Shown: in pieces, positions 2,398 through 20,949 of the stretch
Layout: the number at the start of each line of letters is the position of its first letter
Position numbering within the stretch: the first letter of the stretch is position 1
Source: a virus
DNA length: 26,389 nucleotides
Direction: 5' to 3' (one strand)
IMG/VR virus record: IMGVR_UViG_3300030450_000714
Location: 1 to 26,389 of that record
Position numbers and translations under genes: made by a program
The notes under the pieces: generated by a model
Seen by the model: the letters and a program-made list of their open reading frames with translations, nothing else
Database searches by the model: none
What the model was told of the DNA's origin: nothing

Positions 2398-3938
2398 TGA
2401 CAGCTAAATCTAGATATGACTTTTTATCCAGCTACCGTTCCGAGTATTTAGCACAAGCGGATGTAGCGGCTAGACTAACACTTCCATATCTAATTCGTGA
2501 TGAAGAGAATTTCAAAGGTGGAGTACGGGATCTCAAGACTCCGTGGCAAAGCGTTGGTGCAAAGGGAGTAGTAACACTAGCATCTAAATTGATGTTGGCT
2601 TTACTGCCTGCTCAAACCAGCTTCTTTAAACTCCAAGTTGATGACAGTCAACTAGGTGATGTACCTCCTGAAGTTACAACCGAATTAGATTTATCCTTTG
2701 CAAAGATAGAACGTACTATCATGGATGCTATTGCAGCATCAGATGATCGTGTCATGATACACCAAGCGCTTAAGCATTTGGTAGTAGCAGGCAACGCTCT
2801 ACTCTTCATGGGTAAAGATGGACTGAAGCTCTACCCGTTAAACCGTTTTGTGGTTGATCGAGATGGCAACGGGAACGTGATTGAAATTGTCACTAAAGAA
2901 AAAATTGCAAAAAAATTATTGGCAGATGTAATACCTGATTACCAGGTACCACTGCCAGGTCAAGAGGATGATGACAGAGAAGACTGTGATGTATACACAC
3001 ATATCAAACGAGATAACAATCGTTTTGTATGGCATCAAGAAGTCTTTGATAAAATCATTCCAACTTCCAGAGGTAAGGCACCACTAGATACGAACCCATG
3101 GCTTCACATGAGGTTTAACACTTGTGATGGAGAAGCTTATGGAAGAGGACGAGTCGAAGAGTTTGTCGGAGATCTAAAGAGTTTAGAAGCACTCTCTCAG
3201 GCACTCGTAGAAGGCTCTGCAGCAGCTGCTAAAGTTGTTTTTGTAGTATCACCCTCAAGCACTACTAAACCACAGACGCTGGCCTCTGCAGGTAACGGTG
3301 CGATCGTCCAAGGACGGCCCGATGACATAGGAGTTGTGCAAGTTGGTAAGACTGCAGACTTCCAGACTGCCTATCAAATGATGGGCCAACTAGAGAAGCG
3401 TTTATCAGAAGCTTTCCTTATACTTTCGGTACGCCAAAGTGAAAGGACTACAGCAGAAGAAGTACGTATGACACAGATGGAACTAGAGCAGCAACTCGGT
3501 GGACTATTTAGTCTACTTACTGTAGAGTTCTTAGTACCATATCTAAACAGGAAACTGTCTGTCTTTCAGAAGACTGGACAGATACCTAAGATACCTAAAG
3601 GTGTTGTTAAACCTACCATTGTGGCAGGTGTCAATGCATTAGGAAGAGGTCAGGATAGAGAAGCACTTGGTATGTTCCTTACTACCATCTCACAAACGAT
3701 GGGACCAGAGGCAACACAAAAGTTTATTAACCCTGAAGAAGTTATCAAACGTTTAGCAGCATCACAAGGTATAGATATACTTAACCTTGTACGTTCTCTT
3801 CAAGAAATAGAAGGAGAACAACAGCAGTTACAACAACAACAGATGGCATTAGAAGCAGGTAAAGTTGATAATAGTAATCCTATGAATGACCCAAGTAAAA
3901 ATCCACAACTAGCGGAGGAACTCAGTGGACCAGGTTAA
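2397..3938 (+). CDS. Portal protein (head-tail connector), T7 gp8 type
   Basis: A 513-aa protein, close to T7 gp8 (536 aa). It would form the dodecameric ring at the unique capsid vertex through which DNA is packaged and ejected, and on which the internal core and tail assemble. N-terminal features typical of the family include YRSEYLAQADVAARLTLPYL and the segment TPWQSVGAKGVVTLASKLML around residues 48-67. The central part (LVEGSAAAAKVVFVVSPSS, SEAFLILSVRQSERTTAEEV) matches the conserved portal helices. The C-terminus is Gln-rich (QQQLQQQQM), as in many podovirus portals. The ATG overlaps the upstream TAA by one base. The downstream gene begins inside the last 14 bases. Confidence 0.95.
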   Translation: MTAKSRYDFLSSYRSEYLAQADVAARLTLPYLIRDEENFKGGVRDLKTPWQSVGAKGVVTLASKLMLALLPAQTSFFKLQVDDSQLGDVPPEVTTELDLSFAKIERTIMDAIAASDDRVMIHQALKHLVVAGNALLFMGKDGLKLYPLNRFVVDRDGNGNVIEIVTKEKIAKKLLADVIPDYQVPLPGQEDDDREDCDVYTHIKRDNNRFVWHQEVFDKIIPTSRGKAPLDTNPWLHMRFNTCDGEAYGRGRVEEFVGDLKSLEALSQALVEGSAAAAKVVFVVSPSSTTKPQTLASAGNGAIVQGRPDDIGVVQVGKTADFQTAYQMMGQLEKRLSEAFLILSVRQSERTTAEEVRMTQMELEQQLGGLFSLLTVEFLVPYLNRKLSVFQKTGQIPKIPKGVVKPTIVAGVNALGRGQDREALGMFLTTISQTMGPEATQKFINPEEVIKRLAASQGIDILNLVRSLQEIEGEQQQLQQQQMALEAGKVDNSNPMNDPSKNPQLAEELSGPG

Positions 3939-4161: not shown

Positions 4162-4909
4162 TCCTTCTGAAACTCAAGAAGGTGAGCTGACTGAAGAGGA
4201 ACAGAATTCTCTAGAGGTTGGTGAGAAGATGGCTGAACAGCAAGAACAAATGCTTGCTGGTAAATTTAAAACAGCTGAAGATTTAGAACAAGGTTACATT
4301 GAGTTACAGAAGAAACTTGGTGAGACTAAAGAAGATTCTGCTGAGCCTGAAGAAAAACCTGAAGCTAAAGAGGAAGAAAAATCTGAAGAGATTGATACTT
4401 CATTTTTAAATACTCTTTGGGAAGAAGGTCAGAAAGGTGAGTATACTGAAGAGACTATGAAGCAGTTAGCTGGTATGGACTCTAGAGATATAGCACAAAT
4501 GTATCTTAAAGAAAGATCTGAATCTCCAGCTCCAGTACAGTCACAACTTTCTGAAGATAATATTAAAGATCTAAAAGGTATAGCTGGTGGTGATGAAGGC
4601 TACGGTCAAATGATGGCTTGGGCTGGTGAGAATTTAAGTGAACAAGAGGTTAAGATGTATGATGTAATCATGGATCAAGGTAATCCTCTTGCTGCTTTCT
4701 TTGCTGTACAAGCTTTATCTTATAGATTTAATGATGCACGTGGAGTTGATGGGGAAATGTTAACTGGTAAAGCTGCTAAGTCTGAAGGATCAAAATTCCG
4801 TAGTCAGGCAGAAGTAGTAAAAGCTATGAGTGATCCACAGTATGATAAAGACCCTGCTTATCGTCAGGATATCTACGATAAATTAGAACGTTCCAATATT
4901 AATTTCTAA
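4142..4909 (+). CDS. Capsid assembly scaffolding protein, T7 gp9 type
   Basis: A 255-aa, very acidic, helix-rich protein placed between portal and capsid, as T7 gp9 (307 aa). It is expected to nucleate procapsid assembly with the portal and capsid protein and to leave the head before DNA fills it. Visible features are an N-terminal Glu-rich helix (TEEEQNSLEVGEKMAEQQEQ), an EPEEKPEAKEEEKSEE linker near residues 67-83, and a C-terminal part ending SDPQYDKDPAYRQDIYDKLE. That end matches a typical scaffold C-terminus, where basic and aromatic residues contact the capsid protein. The start ATG lies 20 bases inside the preceding small gene. Confidence 0.88.
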   Translation: MATLTYDPSETQEGELTEEEQNSLEVGEKMAEQQEQMLAGKFKTAEDLEQGYIELQKKLGETKEDSAEPEEKPEAKEEEKSEEIDTSFLNTLWEEGQKGEYTEETMKQLAGMDSRDIAQMYLKERSESPAPVQSQLSEDNIKDLKGIAGGDEGYGQMMAWAGENLSEQEVKMYDVIMDQGNPLAAFFAVQALSYRFNDARGVDGEMLTGKAAKSEGSKFRSQAEVVKAMSDPQYDKDPAYRQDIYDKLERSNINF

Positions 4910-4911
4910 CT

Positions 4912-5325
4912 ATGGCTGATGCAACAGGGTATGACCCTAAAAATATAAGTGGTATGACCACACTCTATGTAGTACCCACCGCTGCAACTAATCCAATTTA
5001 TCCACATCCTTATACTACTGGAGAGATAGCAGCCTTTGATGGTTTCACTGGAGGCTCAGGTTATTCAGCAGGTACTGTAACACCAACAGGTGGTACTGGC
5101 ACTGGTGCTACTGCTACTATTACAGTAAGTGGTGGTGCAGTTAATGGAGCAACCATTGTAAACAAAGGTAAGAACTATACAGATGATGATGTACTAACAG
5201 TACCTGGAGGTAATGGTGCTGGTAGAATAACTGTGAATGGAGTCAGTGATGGTCAAACAGATACTGAACTTTCACCACATCAAGATGTCTGTGCAGCAGG
5301 TACATTATCAACTAGCTCCTGGTAA
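4912..5325 (+). CDS. Gly/Thr-rich beta protein in head block, possible decoration protein
   Basis: A 137-aa protein starting 3 bases after the scaffold stop. From about residue 43 it carries a beta-rich repeat-like module. Its pattern is GGSGYSAGTVTPTGGTGTGA, then a valine-rich strand, then GKNYTDDDVLTVPGG: a 'GxGYxxGD' plus 'GGxGxGAxATITV' arrangement common in phage structural proteins. The 127-aa protein at 7335, just after the capsid gene, has the same arrangement, so the two may be related. Its place between scaffold and capsid suggests a head-surface or head-completion protein. This is inference; no catalytic motif is present. Confidence 0.7.
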   Translation: MADATGYDPKNISGMTTLYVVPTAATNPIYPHPYTTGEIAAFDGFTGGSGYSAGTVTPTGGTGTGATATITVSGGAVNGATIVNKGKNYTDDDVLTVPGGNGAGRITVNGVSDGQTDTELSPHQDVCAAGTLSTSSW

Positions 5326-5330
5326 ATATT

Positions 5331-5417
5331 ATGCCTTACGGAGCTGGAACATACGGAACTAAAAAAGGAAGACCACCCAAGAAAAATGTCAAAGGGAAAG
5401 GTAAGAAAAACAAATAA
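5331..5417 (+). CDS. 28-aa basic peptide with AT-hook-like GRPPKK motif
   Basis: ATG 5331 opens a 28-codon frame ending TAA 5415-5417. It starts MPYGAGTYGTKKGRPPKK and ends in a run of Lys and Gly. Short proteins with an 'MPYG.GTYG..KGRPPKK' layout occur in many marine phages, to my recollection. The Gly-Arg-Pro core flanked by Lys resembles an AT-hook DNA-binding motif. It starts 5 bases after the upstream stop and overlaps the next small gene by 32 bases in the +1 frame. DNA binding is inferred from the motif alone. Confidence 0.6.
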   Translation: MPYGAGTYGTKKGRPPKKNVKGKGKKNK

Positions 5418-5553
5418 ATATTATACCTTCTGGGGTATAATGACTATAGCTGTAGTCATAGGTCAGATTTATGTCGGCACTGGCTACAGGATAATGTCTA
5501 ATACAATTATAGAGGCGACCCGCACAGCAGCGTCCTCGCCTTTCGACTATTGA
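5386..5553 (+). CDS. 55-aa single-span membrane protein
   Basis: ATG 5386 to TGA 5551-5553 encodes 55 residues. A basic N-terminus (MSKGKVRKTNK) is followed by one clear membrane segment (YTFWGIMTIAVVIGQIYVG, about residues 13-31) and a polar tail ending ASSPFDY. The positive-inside rule predicts the N-terminus in the cytoplasm. It begins inside the preceding 28-aa gene (32-base overlap, different frame), and the glutamine riboswitch begins a few bases after its stop. The layout looks like a real phage membrane protein; its function is unknown. Confidence 0.65.
   Translation: MSKGKVRKTNKYYTFWGIMTIAVVIGQIYVGTGYRIMSNTIIEATRTAASSPFDY
5420..5458. repeat. Two adjacent perfect inverted repeats inside the 55-aa gene
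   Basis: ATTATACC (5420-5427) and GGTATAAT (5434-5441) form an 8-bp perfect inverted repeat with a 6-base spacer. It is followed directly by TGACTA / TAGTCA (5441-5446 and 5453-5458), again with a 6-base spacer. The first arm's partner contains an exact TATAAT (5436-5441), which could serve as a -10 box, though no good -35 element lies upstream. Both lie about 100 bases before the riboswitch. They may be RNA hairpins, an operator or chance within coding sequence. Confidence 0.4.
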
Positions 5554-5559
5554 TACCGT

Positions 5560-5621
5560 CCGTTCATCCCCTACGGGGACGCATGAATCCTAACCATGGA
5601 ACGGGGGTTAGGTACTTGGAG
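5560..5621 (+). promoter_or_regulatory. Glutamine-II riboswitch (Downstream-peptide RNA motif)
   Basis: The RNA folds as helix P1 CCGUUC (5560-5565) with GAACGG (5599-5604), and helix P2 CCCC (5568-5571) with GGGG (5575-5578) closed by UAC. A 7-bp pseudoknot joins CCUAACC (5589-5595) to GGUUAGG (5606-5612). The conserved-looking strings GUUCAUCC, GGACGCAUGA and CCAUGGAACGG match my memory of the Downstream-peptide motif, a glutamine-binding RNA of marine picocyanobacteria and a cyanophage that precedes very short ORFs. The pseudoknot ends 5 bases before the Shine-Dalgarno GGAG (5618-5621). That fits translational control in which ligand-stabilised folding blocks ribosome binding. The assignment rests on fold and context; glutamine binding is not shown here. 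Confidence 0.75.
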
Positions 5622-5628
5622 AAAAACC

Positions 5629-5688
5629 ATGCAAACAAAAAAGTTCGTACTCAAGTATCGCGGTATCCCTTATACCAAAACACTTTAA
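5629..5688 (+). CDS. 19-aa riboswitch-controlled 'downstream peptide'
   Basis: ATG 5629 follows GGAG (5618-5621) by 7 bases and encodes MQTKKFVLKYRGIPYTKTL before TAA 5686-5688. Downstream-peptide riboswitches are followed by conserved ORFs of about 17-100 codons, which this matches. The basic peptide contains YRGIPY, reminiscent of the 'YRG-x-x-Y' core of small cyanobacterial DUF4278-type proteins. It ends 6 bases before the secreted barrel-like gene, so the riboswitch may also influence that gene through coupling. No function can be given. Confidence 0.65.
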   Translation: MQTKKFVLKYRGIPYTKTL

Positions 5689-5694
5689 ACAACT

Positions 5695-6057
5695 ATGAAA
5701 ACACTTGCTCTAGCACTCGCTTCCCTTACAGCTGTGAGCGCTCCCGCAATGGCCGGGGTATACGTGACCGGTTCAGCAGAATTTACAGGATCAGATGGTG
5801 AATACAAAAATCGTGAACTCCTTGGCCGAGTCGGTTATGATACTGAAGTCGGTAGCCTTACTCCTTACGTGGAGCTTGGCGGCGGGGTCTCTACTGACGA
5901 TGGCGCTGATGGCGAAAAGCTACTCATCGCTGAAGTCGGTACTGGTATCGAAATCACAGAGAAGCTGACTGCTAATGCTTTCTATGAGCATAAGAAGTAT
6001 GCTGATTCTGATGACCCTGACTGGAAAATTGGCGTAGGTACTAAGTACCGCTTCTGA
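5695..6057 (+). CDS. Secreted outer-membrane beta-barrel-like protein (moron candidate)
   Basis: A 120-aa protein with a textbook Sec signal peptide: MKT, a hydrophobic core (LALALASLTAV) and an APAMA cleavage site near residue 20. The mature part is made of alternating-polarity strands (VYVTGSAEF, LLGRVGYDT, LTPYVELGGGV, LTANAFYEH) and ends WKIGVGTKYRF. A C-terminal Phe preceded by alternating aromatics is the usual outer-membrane insertion signal. About 100 mature residues would make a small barrel of roughly 6-8 strands. Codon choice (GCT, GGC, CTC, GAA) is more GC-rich than in the tail genes. Possible roles are altering the host surface or excluding other phages. Lying in the head operon behind a riboswitch, it looks like an acquired accessory gene. 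Confidence 0.75.
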   Translation: MKTLALALASLTAVSAPAMAGVYVTGSAEFTGSDGEYKNRELLGRVGYDTEVGSLTPYVELGGGVSTDDGADGEKLLIAEVGTGIEITEKLTANAFYEHKKYADSDDPDWKIGVGTKYRF

Positions 6058-6191
6058 TGAAGTTTAATGAAATGTGGTTGGGGGTCTTCGGACTCCTAGC
6101 CATTTTTATATTTATCGAAGCCTTGCATGTTAACTATCATAGACAAGGTAAGGCTTGGTTAGAGGCACCTCAGTGTCGGACCTCTAACTAA
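6057..6191 (+). CDS. 44-aa single-span membrane protein
   Basis: ATG 6057 overlaps the barrel gene's stop by one base (TGATG), so the two are probably translationally coupled. The 44 residues begin MKFNEMW, have one membrane segment (LGVFGLLAIFIFIEAL, about residues 8-23) and end in a polar tail with one Cys (EAPQCRTSN). No lipoprotein signal is seen. With the 55-aa protein it gives two small membrane proteins flanking the riboswitch cassette. Function unknown. Confidence 0.6.
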   Translation: MKFNEMWLGVFGLLAIFIFIEALHVNYHRQGKAWLEAPQCRTSN

Positions 6192-6306
6192 TTGGCATTG
6201 GCCCGTACGCGGATACCCTTTGCCGTCTAGACGGTGGGAAAGACCACAAAAATCTTTAATTTCAATCGATTGAGAGCACGTTTAACTATACACTACTCTC
6301 TAAACA
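6192..6306 (+). promoter_or_regulatory. Structured leader / possible phage promoter before the capsid gene
   Basis: This is the second-largest gene-free gap and sits before the most highly expressed structural gene. ATTGGCCCGTAC (6197-6208) resembles the Syn5 cyanophage RNA-polymerase promoter as I recall it (ATTGGGCACCCGTAA) with three bases missing, so a phage promoter is possible. It is followed by a short hairpin CCG-UACG-CGG (6203-6212). A longer hairpin pairs CCC (6216-6218) with GGG (6236-6238) and GCCGU (6222-6226) with ACGGU (6231-6235) around CUAG. The last 60 bases are AT-rich and have no Shine-Dalgarno. A promoter with a stabilising 5' hairpin is the simplest reading. Confidence 0.45.
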
Positions 6307-7320
6307 ATGGCTAATACCTTAGTTTCCAGTATTGGTTCTATTAACAATACCTCGTCAACACCGTTGGCGCTAGGTACTGCTTATGATACCAAATACGCAA
6401 CCTACCTGAAGCTGTTTTCTGGTGAGCTTTTCAAAGCTTATGAGGCAGCAACGGTAGCTAAAGGAACTGTACAGAACCGTCAACTAAAGAACGGTAAGTC
6501 TATGCAGTTCATATTCACAGGCCGTATGACGGCTGATTACCACGAGCCAGGAACACCGATTCTAGGCAGTGGCGATCCACCAGTAGCAGAGAAGACCATC
6601 GTTTGTGATGATCTACTCATCAGTTCTGCATTCGTGTATGATCTAGATGAAACTCTTGCTCACTACTCTCTACGCTCAGAGATCTCAAAGAAAATTGGCT
6701 ATGCACTAGCCGAAGCTTATGATAAAAAGATCTTCAGAACAATCGCTCTCGCTGCTAGAGAAGCTCACCCGATTACTGCAGCCCCAGGCCCAGAGCCCGG
6801 CGGTTCCGTTATTAAGATTGGTGCCGGTAACCAATACGACGCACAGAAACTCGTAGATGCATTCTTCGAAGCTGCTGCAATTCTCGATGAAAAGAACCTT
6901 CCTAAGGATGGACGTTCTGCCGTACTAAACCCACGTCAGTACTATGCATTAGTTTCTCAAGTAGATACTAATATCCTTAACAGGGATTATGGTAACAGCA
7001 ATGGTAACCTCACCTCTGGTGAAGGACTATATGAAATTGCTGGTATCAAGATTCAACGTTCTAACAACCTACCTTTCCAAGCTGGTACAGTAGCTGCTGT
7101 GTCTGGTGAAAATAACACCTACAATGGTGCTTTCGCTACACACGCTGGCCTCATATATCAGAAGGATGCGGCTGGTGTTGTAGAAGCAATCGGTCCTCAG
7201 GTTCAGACAACCGGAGCTGACATCAAAACAATGTATCAAGGCGACTTGATCGTTGGACGTCTAGCAATGGGAGCTGGAACTCTTAACCCTGCTGCTGCAA
7301 TTGAAATCCAAACCGCTTAA
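6307..7320 (+). CDS. Major capsid protein, T7 gp10 type
   Basis: A 337-aa protein, nearly the length of T7 gp10A (345 aa), with the HK97-type family pattern. Conserved stretches align with T7 from memory: YLKLFSGELFKAYE (T7 FLKVFGGEVLTAF), NGKSMQFIFTGR, HEPGTPILG, the helix HYSLRSEISKKIGYALAEAYD, and the end YQGDLIVGRLAMGAGTLNP (T7 QIIAKYAMGHGGLRPEA). It assembles with the scaffold and portal into the T=7 shell. Codon choice is clearly more GC-rich and host-like than in the tail genes, as expected for a highly translated product. No T7-like frameshift extension was identified; the following frame has its own start and ribosome-binding site. Confidence 0.95.
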   Translation: MANTLVSSIGSINNTSSTPLALGTAYDTKYATYLKLFSGELFKAYEAATVAKGTVQNRQLKNGKSMQFIFTGRMTADYHEPGTPILGSGDPPVAEKTIVCDDLLISSAFVYDLDETLAHYSLRSEISKKIGYALAEAYDKKIFRTIALAAREAHPITAAPGPEPGGSVIKIGAGNQYDAQKLVDAFFEAAAILDEKNLPKDGRSAVLNPRQYYALVSQVDTNILNRDYGNSNGNLTSGEGLYEIAGIKIQRSNNLPFQAGTVAAVSGENNTYNGAFATHAGLIYQKDAAGVVEAIGPQVQTTGADIKTMYQGDLIVGRLAMGAGTLNPAAAIEIQTA

Positions 7321-18200: not shown

Positions 18201-19081
18201 TAGTATATCAATCAAACCGTATAGATCAATCTATTACTGAAGATTTCTTTAGAAAAACAGCTTATTCTATTAGTATGAATATAACTAATAGCACATTCCT
18301 CAGTGGATTTAATCCTATTGCAGGTTTAATCTCTGGAGATCCTTCTGCATGGGCACGATTTACAGCTCAACAAGCTGATCAACTACTAATACCATTCAGA
18401 GGAGTGAGAAGCATTCTCAATAACGCTGTTACTCCACAACTTAAAGATGTAGAAAATGACTTCTGGGCTTATCTTCAGAATGCTAATAAGTTTTTATTCA
18501 GTGGTAATGAAAATCTACAAGATTTAGTTGATGTATATACTGGTAGACCTATCAATACTTGGGAACATATGAATGCTTCTGCTAATGCCTTACTACCTGT
18601 ATTCAAAGTTAATGGTGGTATGGAGCCTTGGAGACAATGGTTACTGAGTACTGGTTGGGATGGGCTACAAAAGATGAGAAGAAATAAAATAACTAAAGAA
18701 CCATTAAGCACTAAAGATAGATACTTTATTAATAACTGGATAGCTAATAATGCTAACCTTAAAGGTCAAGTAGAGAGACTTATGACTGAAGGTGATGGCT
18801 TCTGGAATAAAGAACTTGCAGAATATGCCAGAGTTAGAGGTTTAAAGAGTCAAAAAGAACTACCTATAAAAGAAACTTTAATACATAAAGAATTAGATCG
18901 TATCCATGATGAGGCATTTGATTCAGCATGGGATGCTTTAGAAGCTAGAAATGAACAATTCACTTACTTAGGCCGAGAGAAAGTATATAGAAATTGGCAA
19001 TTACAACGGGGTGATACTAGAGGCGCTGCCAAAACACAGAAAAATGTAAACCAATTATTAAAACAAACCCGTAACAAATAG
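15263..19081 (+). CDS. Internal virion protein D (ejection protein), T7 gp16 type
   Basis: A 1272-aa protein, near T7 gp16 (1318 aa), expected in the inner core and, after ejection, at the inner membrane. Start ATG 15263 has GGAGG just upstream. Unlike T7 gp16, the N-terminal ~150 residues show no lytic transglycosylase signature. They instead contain acidic helices and hydrophobic patches (VVRGVAETALQPVLGVGDFA, IIVPTMLGGGAIVGSAKAA). Further hydrophobic segments lie near residues 203-223 and about 605-645 (RINSILMGLSPARAAVGNA), which could insert in membrane. Residues ~740-760 (LNSFMASGMARAKAYDYVL) and the end (YRNWQLQRGDTRGAAKTQK) look like gp16-family regions. Wall digestion must be done by another protein or not be needed. 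Confidence 0.87.
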   Translation: MSDVIDPAQNPIDSSLQSLDNFTNERADFYEKQEQEKANSLEAASQPPPDEFSDVGDVVRGVAETALQPVLGVGDFASDAVGLVPWLKPVDEWWDNNSYRSTHPGHKLLRDASSIIVPTMLGGGAIVGSAKAATAAMRIPSYAKTLGAIAAYTGVDTSVAMISSHSKKDDNMGAVLNDWLGWDIPWATRASDSPDVRWKKNVLEAAGFAGGVELLGAAFTFGRKAKLFPRDGVADTAIKTRQAKLNQYDDPLTAAVEPRREARTAAQVEEGADALRRDPLGEEGYNPFIHDIGEDAAGRAVNDLEADPLLAKVNHAQIQNNVDTINGRAVSVADESFQKRFRRAVNGDERALALDDLFNRITPNVDAVIAGKKISAEQINRAVDNLTTAIHGKDITIREFEMIVDDMKAVTFGANKFLGEEDWIIASRALKESYEKLFDPNQMRASAMLTQQAADTITDTATAAKMIGETADTSRQMSIIFDKVALLADEVNANQYITNKAQEYRRIKQLGDESVAIDWLRKQGDDFDEYIAYSKAKTNESHEFFKKTAKENPHYYKAFQMLYDKTNGNVDQIHKMHAWAEDKIGLIKKGIYDKNPEVPSIIVQGMQTARINSILMGLSPARAAVGNATLLTVKPISVFAGAAVTGDIDALKRAYQVYGGFSENMKRGFKVMRQEWNNAVQHPEEMMMRGRADLRQAKIEDMEILDEIAEGWRANAENGKLAMYNVAKGLTWWNNQTWTKLGTSALYSIDGFLNSFMASGMARAKAYDYVLENSRGAFKQDDFLDMQRRLYDEAFDSRGVLKDRAAEIASKELALNMDNTVVKKLDAFLEHVPAARGLFLFPRTGINALELSWSFNPMSNLGPAMTRARRVLGAATKEEKLAALVEHGIDANQNADAAFTALRNEYIGRQIMGSTVVMGAGMLALEGSLTGNGPQDAAEKRRLMGMGWQPLSIKNPVTGQWHSYRGYEPFDKLLGLTADVVYQSNRIDQSITEDFFRKTAYSISMNITNSTFLSGFNPIAGLISGDPSAWARFTAQQADQLLIPFRGVRSILNNAVTPQLKDVENDFWAYLQNANKFLFSGNENLQDLVDVYTGRPINTWEHMNASANALLPVFKVNGGMEPWRQWLLSTGWDGLQKMRRNKITKEPLSTKDRYFINNWIANNANLKGQVERLMTEGDGFWNKELAEYARVRGLKSQKELPIKETLIHKELDRIHDEAFDSAWDALEARNEQFTYLGREKVYRNWQLQRGDTRGAAKTQKNVNQLLKQTRNK

Positions 19082-19086
19082 GCATT

Positions 19087-20949
19087 ATGGCTACAACTCA
19101 AAACGTATATACTGGAGACAATACCGCCGTTGACTTTGGTTTCACATTTCCATATTTAAAAGAATCTGACATTAAGGTAAGCCTTGATGGTACAGATCAG
19201 ACAATTACAACTCATTATACTTTACATAATGCAACGACAATAAGATTTGGTACTGCTCCTGCTACAGGAAAGATAGTTAGAGTCTATAGGGATACTGCTA
19301 GTGATAGCTTATCTTCAACTTTCTATCCAGGCTCAGCTATTAGGTCTAATGATCTTAATGATAACTATACTCAGAACTTGTATGTAACACAAGAAGGGGA
19401 GTATGATACAGCTTCTGCTCAGGATTATTCTAAACGATTTATTATCGATGGTGATGGATCTGATACTACTGGAACAGAAGAGCACCCAGTTATAGCTAAT
19501 AGACCTGCTAAACCACAGGGTGTACCTTATGCTATTACAACAGCTGGTAACGCAGTTACAACAGCTAACACTGCATCTACAAATGCGTCAAACGCTGTAA
19601 CTACCGCTAACGCAGCTAATACAACTGCGGCGACAGCTAATGCTACAGCTGGTACAGCGAACACAAACTCGACTAATGCTGTTAATACAGCAAACAGTGC
19701 AGTAACTACAGCTAATAGCGCTGTTAGTACAGCCAATGGTGCGGTTAGTACAGCTAATGCCGCTGATGCTATTGCTGATTCAGCAAAGCTAGCGACTGAT
19801 AGATTGGTTGCGATAACTACTGATGGAGGTTCTACATGGACTCAAACAGGTAATAATACAAATGCATCGACTGATCCTAAGGGTGTTGGTTATGCTATTA
19901 CTACATCAGAATCCGCTGTAACCACTTCTAATAGTGCAGTAAGTACTGCAAACAGTGCAGTTAGTACAGCTAATGGAGCAGTTACAACAGCGAATACAGC
20001 AAATACTACAGCTGGTAATGCGGTGACAACTGCAAATAGTGCAGTGACTACAGCGAATACAGCAAATACTACATCTGCTAGTGCTGTGACGACTGCGAAT
20101 AATGCTGTAACTACTGCTAACGCTGCAAGCGCTGCTGTTGCTGCAGCTGTGACATACACACAGAAAGCTAATGAAGCTGCTTTACAAGGCTTTGCTCCAG
20201 GTGAAGATGCAACTGATAATTTAGGTTATTATGAAGTAACTGATTCAACTAATTTAATTAATGAAGGTTGGGTCCATAGTGGTGTACATTATAAAACACA
20301 AAACATTCCAGCTACTTTTGAAGGGGCTCCCGGTCTTACGGTAAGATTAGAATTTAATTTTAACTCTGCCTCAGGTGCAGATGCTTCTAATCAGAAGACG
20401 TTCACTTATATGAGTTATTTTGCAAATGATCCTGAAGATAGGTACCTACCTAATACAAGAGTTCATTTAGCTGGAACACCAACGACAGGCAATATAAATT
20501 ATTTTACTGTTAAAGTAGCTACGAAAAATGCATTCCATCGTTATAATGGAACCGGATCATCTAATGGATATATACTTAATGGTGAGCAAGCTCCGTTTTT
20601 AGAGTTTACTCCAGGTATGACTTATAGATTTGATCAAGCTGATTCATCTAATGCAAATCATACTTTGAAGTTTTATGAAGAAGCAGATAAAACTACATTG
20701 TACTCAACTGGTGTAACATTAAATGGTACCCCTGGTTCAGCGGGTGCTTATACAGAAATAGTTACAACAGATACATTACCTACAGTTTTACATTATATGT
20801 GTGCTGAGCAGGCTCATGAAGGTAATGGAATACAAACTAACACTGCTTTTGATAGAACTGCGTTGCCAGTTATTGATGGTGGGGATTTCACCCTAACCGC
20901 AAGTTCAGCAACAGTCTCAACTATTTATGACGGAGGAGCGTTTACTTAA
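19087..20949 (+). CDS. Tail fibre protein with T7 gp17-type N-terminus, heptad stalk and cupredoxin-like tip
   Basis: A 620-aa fibre. Residues 1-130 match the T7 gp17 attachment domain (YTGDNTAVDFGFTFPYLKES, SDSLSSTFYPGSAIRSNDLN). Residues about 150-355 form a stalk of seven-residue repeats of the AVTTANS type. The stalk is interrupted once near residues 230-265 by a Gly/Trp-containing spacer (TTDGGSTWTQTGNN). Two ~121-aa stalk modules begin with related strings, PQGVPYAITT and PKGVGYAITT. Residues about 468-585 form a beta domain with NGTPGSAGAYTEI and YMCAEQAH. His525, Cys572 and His577 are placed like type-1 copper ligands of cupredoxins. The trimeric fibre would attach to the gp11/gp12 ring by its N-terminus. 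Confidence 0.88.
   Translation: MATTQNVYTGDNTAVDFGFTFPYLKESDIKVSLDGTDQTITTHYTLHNATTIRFGTAPATGKIVRVYRDTASDSLSSTFYPGSAIRSNDLNDNYTQNLYVTQEGEYDTASAQDYSKRFIIDGDGSDTTGTEEHPVIANRPAKPQGVPYAITTAGNAVTTANTASTNASNAVTTANAANTTAATANATAGTANTNSTNAVNTANSAVTTANSAVSTANGAVSTANAADAIADSAKLATDRLVAITTDGGSTWTQTGNNTNASTDPKGVGYAITTSESAVTTSNSAVSTANSAVSTANGAVTTANTANTTAGNAVTTANSAVTTANTANTTSASAVTTANNAVTTANAASAAVAAAVTYTQKANEAALQGFAPGEDATDNLGYYEVTDSTNLINEGWVHSGVHYKTQNIPATFEGAPGLTVRLEFNFNSASGADASNQKTFTYMSYFANDPEDRYLPNTRVHLAGTPTTGNINYFTVKVATKNAFHRYNGTGSSNGYILNGEQAPFLEFTPGMTYRFDQADSSNANHTLKFYEEADKTTLYSTGVTLNGTPGSAGAYTEIVTTDTLPTVLHYMCAEQAHEGNGIQTNTAFDRTALPVIDGGDFTLTASSATVSTIYDGGAFT
19546..20148 (+). repeat. 21-base heptad repeats coding the fibre stalk
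   Basis: Two blocks (about 19546-19760 and 19905-20148) repeat a 21-base unit coding A-V-T/S-T-A-N-S/T. Examples are the repeated GCAGTTAGTACAGCTAAT-like units. The two blocks belong to a larger duplication of about 363 bases, beginning at about 19519 and about 19882. The repeat gives an alanine-rich coiled-coil stalk and a natural site for unit gain or loss by slippage. Confidence 0.85.

Follow-up and report, generated by a model that had tools for sequence, protein, structure and literature searches.

The window (the whole stretch of viral DNA analysed, 26,389 nt in length) carries a head-gene operon in which portal, scaffold, major head and tail proteins were identified by PHROGs. The order of the T7-type portal, scaffold, capsid and tail tube genes, as assigned by PHROGs, meets the criterion for an Autographiviridae T7-like cyanophage, and the capsid protein is up to 84% identical to those of Synechococcus podoviruses, cyanopodoviruses being the closest relatives. 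The features that surround the start of the capsid gene are the following:

5558..5613, + strand: Glutamine-II riboswitch aptamer, whole model match (RF01704 covariance model)
5561..5565, + strand: 5' strand of the pseudoknot, C1-C5, CGUUC, with its partner at 5599-5603 (mapping on PMC6698751 numbering)
5567..5579, + strand: P1 hairpin UCCCC-UAC-GGGGA, arms 5567-5571/5575-5579, whose loop holds a gene in relatives
5580..5583, + strand: linking strand CGCA, C17-A20 (mapping on PMC6698751)
5589..5612, + strand: P2, formed by CCUAACC (5589-5595) and GGUUAGG (5606-5612)
5596..5605, + strand: P2 loop, A33-G42, containing the 3' pseudoknot strand GAACG (5599-5603)
5618..5621, + strand: Shine-Dalgarno-like GGAG, 7 nt ahead of the start codon (sequence)
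5629..5688, + strand: 19-aa peptide MQTKKFVLKYRGIPYTKTL, DUF4278-like (L-x-YRG-x-x-Y)
5695..6057, + strand: outer-membrane beta-barrel protein, OMP (Phage_OMP PF24653, phrog_417; Pfam and PHROGs)
6155..6249, + strand: second structured RNA, a leader of the capsid gene that is not part of the riboswitch (covariation, covariance model R1)
6307..7320, + strand: major capsid protein gene (phrog_267, tblastn)

Small ORFs also flank the riboswitch, at 5331-5417 (28 aa, basic), 5440-5553 (37 aa) and 6057-6191 (44 aa, with a hydrophobic stretch); none of the three has a Pfam match, and the last of them runs at its 3' end into the capsid-leader RNA. Sigma-70-like promoters around the element did not rise above the level of shuffled sequences, and a terminator-like hairpin at 6074-6103 was rejected, as it falls inside a coding ORF.

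Comparison of the window with all of Rfam yielded a single match anywhere along its length, that of RF01704 (Glutamine-II) at 5558-5613 (+), which covers the full model length and scores 57.8 bits (E 9e-12), the gathering score of the family being 33 bits. When only 5300-6350 was searched, against 4227 Rfam families, the E-value of this match was 3.6e-13, and no other family appeared at E 1 or better. The numbering of the aptamer is our own mapping onto a Prochlorococcus Glutamine-II RNA of known crystal structure (PMC6698751), in which C1, G18, C19, C39 and G40 contact glutamine. All of these nucleotides are present in the window (5561, 5581, 5582, 5602 and 5603, respectively), as are the site-shaping G2, A33:G42 and G41 (5562, 5596:5605 and 5604), and the P1, pseudoknot, long-range C19:G41 pair (5582:5604) and P2 that characterize the class are complete. 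Minimum-free-energy folding alone does not single out the region (z -1.8), a weak value that is expected because the aptamer is pseudoknotted; it is comparative evidence, and not folding of this kind, that reveals it. The original prediction, made from sequence alone, had assigned the element to the Glutamine-II class, and the RF01704 covariance-model check upholds this assignment. It had also taken CCUAACC/GGUUAGG to be a 7-bp pseudoknot, a claim that fails, being ruled out by both the RF01704 alignment and the mapping onto PMC6698751, which make this helix P2; the pseudoknot is CGUUC/GAACG. The distance of 5 bases that it gave between helix and Shine-Dalgarno holds, because P2 ends at 5612 and GGAG occupies 5618-5621, but the helix that ends there is P2.

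The element gives blastn matches in T7-like cyanophages, mostly with no annotation underneath. Its spread was followed in 28 T7-like cyanophage records, picked by their capsid protein only, to avoid bias, and searched over their whole length. Nineteen of these score above the Rfam cut-off, a result repeated by cmscan on the loci; in every one of the 19 the aptamer lies just upstream of the major capsid gene and is followed by the peptide, and none is annotated as a riboswitch. Isolates that carry it at the equivalent place include P-SSP7, S-TIP37, S-RIP2 and NATL1A-7. Neither aptamer nor YRG peptide was found in 7/28 records (DSL-LC07, S-SRP01, S-CBP42, S-CBP2, Syn5, P60 and S-B28). S-SBP1 scores 20 bits, with a 3' half only, which is explained by a split aptamer (see below), and the S-CBP3 aptamer falls below the threshold (16 bits), its linking strand being altered and C19:G41 apparently swapped to G:C; this element (L246, about 3123-3175) could possibly reflect an altered ligand preference, or decay.

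Among 17 distinct phage aptamers, changes on both sides were detected in 11 of 18 pairs, with a covariation score of 0.334, as compared to 0.111 for shuffled alignments and at most 0.10 when slid, and the pseudoknot pairs 5561-5565/5599-5603 are retained in 17/17. This test employs Rfam hits, and is thus less filtered than the P2 table of 61 sequences, for which hits were prefiltered for at least 4 P2 pairs and at least 3 P1 pairs, full pairing being partly by construction. A pattern scan of IMG/VR provided about 50 further contigs with the element, and in nearly all of them, as far as they reach, a single strand carries the order scaffold / hli or psbA - riboswitch - peptide - capsid. Another sample of 68 contigs, chosen solely by the capsid-leader element and not by the riboswitch, includes 34 with riboswitch and peptide, 7 with the peptide and a non-standard aptamer, and 27 with neither (cmscan on 13 of the latter was negative throughout); a riboswitch without the peptide occurs in 0/68. 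In marine T7-like cyanophages the position of the riboswitch is constant: it lies a short way upstream of the major capsid gene and usually behind psbA. Chance resemblance, or misassembly of host DNA into a viral contig, has nothing to support it beyond the short length of the element, and is all but excluded: the E-value of 9e-12 and the covariation both stand against it, and the equivalent place of the element in the sequenced isolates P-SSP7, S-TIP37, S-RIP2 and NATL1A-7 already refutes it. Judged by sequence, secondary structure, covariation and ligand-contacting nucleotides, the element at 5558-5613 is a genuine member of the Glutamine-II class (also named Downstream-peptide or type 2 glutamine riboswitch). 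A separate observation concerns contig L111, where a Glutamine-II-like element with a YRG peptide is seen near 4420, with large terminase (phrog_2) and ribonucleotide reductase genes in place of T7-like head genes, suggesting that the cassette occurs in other phage groups too.

The ORF behind the aptamer begins 16 nt past P2 in the window, and with its 19 aa it meets the size criterion of the Glutamine-II class, which lies in the 5' UTR of short ORFs of 17-100 aa (PMC2864571). Each of the 61 distinct phage aptamers in the pattern set has a YRG coding stretch behind it; 58 meet a simple peptide rule, and the other 3 deviate from it by a long ORF, a different start or a frameshift. The AUG is located 13-20 nt past P2, mostly 14-16, and the peptides, mostly 14-38 aa long, carry a single motif, some of them being N-terminally extended (e.g. 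MTQVELDARVREQQAQQKEQKLKYRGVAYTPKTK). Because the peptide search rule itself called for YRG, only two observations are independent of it, namely that the second Tyr of the motif is invariant (58/58 phage peptides) and that third positions are those that vary most within the codons. The L-x-YRG-x-x-Y core of DUF4278 is present in the window peptide, which scores 14.3 bits (E 0.056) against Pfam DUF4278 (PF14105) and does not reach the gathering score of 25.3; the best phage peptide tested, at 21.6 bits, is also under it, and no tested phage peptide passes. These peptides are therefore termed DUF4278-like, and not DUF4278, because the core motif is met and the Pfam cut-off is not. An hhalign comparison of phage and host peptides gave a probability of 76% over 16 columns (E 2.2e-5, single comparison). 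On the host side, 7 picocyanobacterial genomes hold 3-5 RF01704 copies each, several of which precede MTLIYRGQKYVQNKEAAKKQHNELTYRGKAYTS (33 aa, the reported length of the Yfr6 peptide; PMC2518516) or a longer variant that has additional YRG-like units, and the host peptides behind RF01704 pass Pfam DUF4278. PirA was ruled out as a homolog of the peptide, being reportedly absent from picocyanobacteria.

Several other claims of the original prediction can be judged at this point. The short, conserved-looking 19-aa ORF is present at 5629-5688 and conserved in relatives, and the head operon of a T7-like phage is confirmed by the PHROGs assignments. The single phage example given for the class is far too low a count, in view of 19/28 records and dozens of IMG/VR contigs, although it may nonetheless be correct as regards published examples. 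Finally, glutamine sensing had been placed in the middle of the capsid operon; the location holds, and control of the capsid genes is not required.

The capsid gene is itself preceded by the structured RNA at 6155-6249, which has no Rfam match at E<=1. Covariation in 20 phages revealed both-side changes in 19/25 pairs, with a score of 0.449 against 0.183 for shuffled alignments. The covariance model R1 gives one match per genome in T7-like cyanophages and was found in nearly all contigs left out of model building, and the element is present in phages without the riboswitch as well. The loop of its first hairpin is either a conserved GCACCUCAGAGUCGGAC or resembles a tRNA T-arm (GGUUCGAUUCC), and in NATL1A-7 (L248, 3237-3307) a real tRNA-Gly takes the place of this hairpin. 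The stretch that separates the leader RNA from the capsid start codon (6250-6306 and its equivalents in relatives) contains, by eye, a near-perfect palindrome in each phage, with differing sequence; it is followed by GAGAG-like and CUCUC-like strings able to pair, and there are perhaps more hairpins around the capsid ribosome-binding site.

This arrangement bears on a rival explanation, in which a real riboswitch acts mainly on the outer-membrane or head genes behind it, and the short ORF encodes a leader peptide whose translation governs that of these genes, or their stability. In its favor, the OMP gene starts 6 nt past the end of the peptide ORF and lacks a clear Shine-Dalgarno, and the element always lies on the same strand, a few hundred bases ahead of the capsid gene. 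Against it, the peptide is conserved in its amino acids, with change mostly at third codon positions, and resembles host proteins behind the same riboswitch class; the capsid gene has a structured leader of its own; and the gene that follows the peptide differs between phages, the OMP (gp222) being upstream of psbA in many of them. Since the OMP gene is elsewhere in many phages, it is not the conserved target of the riboswitch. We regard this explanation as unlikely. The nearest target is inferred to be the peptide, and in the window phage perhaps also the OMP gene, whose co-translation with the peptide remains possible.

In some relatives the peptide appears to lack a riboswitch, and the missing 5' half of the aptamer sits 160-200 nt upstream with an ORF in between. 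In S-SBP1 (MT424636, 18978-19200), CGUUCA is found at 18978, the AUG at 18987 and CGCA at 19145, the nested ORF being annotated as hypothetical gp32; here and in dozens of IMG/VR contigs, the nested gene sits within the P1 loop and both halves of the aptamer are kept. A search with the nested ORF, for loci in which a phrog_628-type ORF has the 3' half of the aptamer behind it, brought the split form to 53 loci in all, a few of which are duplicates of one contig, with 16 distinct P1-arm pairs. The nested ORF, of 53-60 codons, belongs to phrog_628 (E down to 8.8e-15), whose relatives are mostly found in cyanophage genomes of about 170-210 kb. Uninterrupted pairing of the split P1 arms extends over 3-9 bp (mean 4.5), as compared to a mean of 3.5 when arms were swapped between distinct pairs, the maximum of 1000 swaps being 4.4. 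CGUUCA lies 3-11 nt ahead of the nested AUG in 53/53 loci, and the nested stop codon overlaps the ligand-contacting linking strand (GAC GCA UAA) in most of them. With the nested start near the pseudoknot strand and the stop overlapping the linking strand, nested translation and aptamer folding would exclude each other. A two-piece Glutamine-II RNA has been reported to bind glutamine in vitro (PMC6698751). A bolder reading, which we hold to be slightly more doubtful than probable, glutamine binding by the split RNA being untested, is that, within one mRNA, glutamine would turn the YRG peptide on while silencing the nested gene; the unsplit copy of the window would then be the simple form of a gene-in-aptamer system.

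The split forms, with their gene in P1, together with the altered linking strand and apparent C19:G41 to G:C swap of S-CBP3, can also be cited in support of a different rival, namely a phage RNA that keeps the fold but responds to a different amino acid, or that no longer responds to any ligand and acts in RNA stability or processing. This is considered very unlikely, as the ligand contacts of the glutamine-binding RNA are identical in the window and in all 19 high-scoring phages. Binding of L-glutamine by the window copy is inferred from these identical nucleotides, data on binding or expression being absent for all phage copies; a Kd of 0.2 mM for glutamine has been published.

Our preferred reading, likely at a probability of roughly 0.78, is that the element is a glutamine-responsive translational ON switch for a peptide that acts on host nitrogen control, with ligand, direction and target all inferred. 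L-glutamine would bind in the groove of the pseudoknot, locking the latter and P2, and the bound aptamer would favor translation of the peptide, so that high glutamine in the infected cell would lead to its synthesis, by analogy with what is reported for the host type 2 riboswitch; in the window phage the OMP gene 6 nt downstream may be translated along with it. Type 2 glutamine riboswitches have been reviewed as picocyanobacterial, associated with DUF4278 genes and activating expression upon glutamine binding, DUF4278 covering the N-terminus of the glutamine synthetase (GS) inactivating factor IF17 (PMC6316151). The phage peptide may be a trimmed version of the host DUF4278 proteins, which resemble this N-terminus, and is inferred to act on host nitrogen-assimilation control, through GS, PII or another DUF4278 partner, in a manner that would favor phage protein synthesis. 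The IF17 N-terminus is reported to be dispensable for GS inhibition (PMC6316151) and the phage peptides are under the DUF4278 cut-off; the peptide therefore need not inhibit GS.

Structure prediction across relatives did not find a common sequestering helix, and the aptamer hardly alters how accessible the ribosome-binding region is predicted to be, the average going from 0.40 to 0.42 with no systematic change. A CAUGG:CCAUG helix masking the start codon in the window, spotted by eye, is not proposed as the switch, since relatives do not generally have CCAUG at that place. The YRG codons pair with the 5' flank or leader to a greater extent than in swapped controls, which is only a weak hint, relatedness being uncontrolled. 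It also counts against the ON-switch reading that 7/28 phages live without aptamer and peptide.

The window element is a standard member of a known riboswitch class. It is akin to RF01704 of marine picocyanobacteria (Yfr6, PMM1846) in its full model match, P1-PK-P2 fold and ligand contacts (PMC2864571, PMC6698751, PMC6316151), and both directly precede a small YRG ORF; it differs in being carried by lytic T7-like phages, whose head-gene region holds it at a constant position, in its shorter peptide with a single YRG unit, and in the gene held within P1 in some phage relatives. The peptide shares L-x-YRG-x-x-Y, and the same riboswitch ahead, with DUF4278 (PF14105), the N-terminus of IF17 (gifB) and the Yfr6 peptide, although the phage peptides tested remain under the Pfam cut-off and the host ones lie above it. 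According to PMC6316151, glutamine riboswitches are common in cyanobacteria and found only there, type 2 being confined to marine picocyanobacteria; reports from T4-like cyanophages and pelagimyophages also exist (PMC9964418, PMC9004378). The latter glnA / Glutamine-I (RF01739) elements are likewise glutamine-sensing RNAs of marine phages, but belong to another Rfam family and other phage groups; that of Melnitz is linked to tmRNA, and the window element to a DUF4278-like peptide instead. No paper on Glutamine-II in T7-like cyanophages was found in the literature searched, which lacks most subscription journals, and within it neither the wide conservation among marine T7-like cyanophages nor the form with a gene in P1 appears to have been described.

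Should the bolder reading prove true, the gene-in-aptamer relatives would represent a new way of tying two genes to one ligand. Glutamine is a reporter of nitrogen status in cyanobacteria. That the whole sensor-plus-peptide cassette is fixed in the majority of the marine T7-like cyanophages examined suggests phages that read, or rewire, the nitrogen control of their host while infecting it. This idea can be tested directly in the engineerable phage S-TIP37 (PMC8776855), and the cassette may also shed light on the retention of several copies of this riboswitch and peptide by picocyanobacteria.
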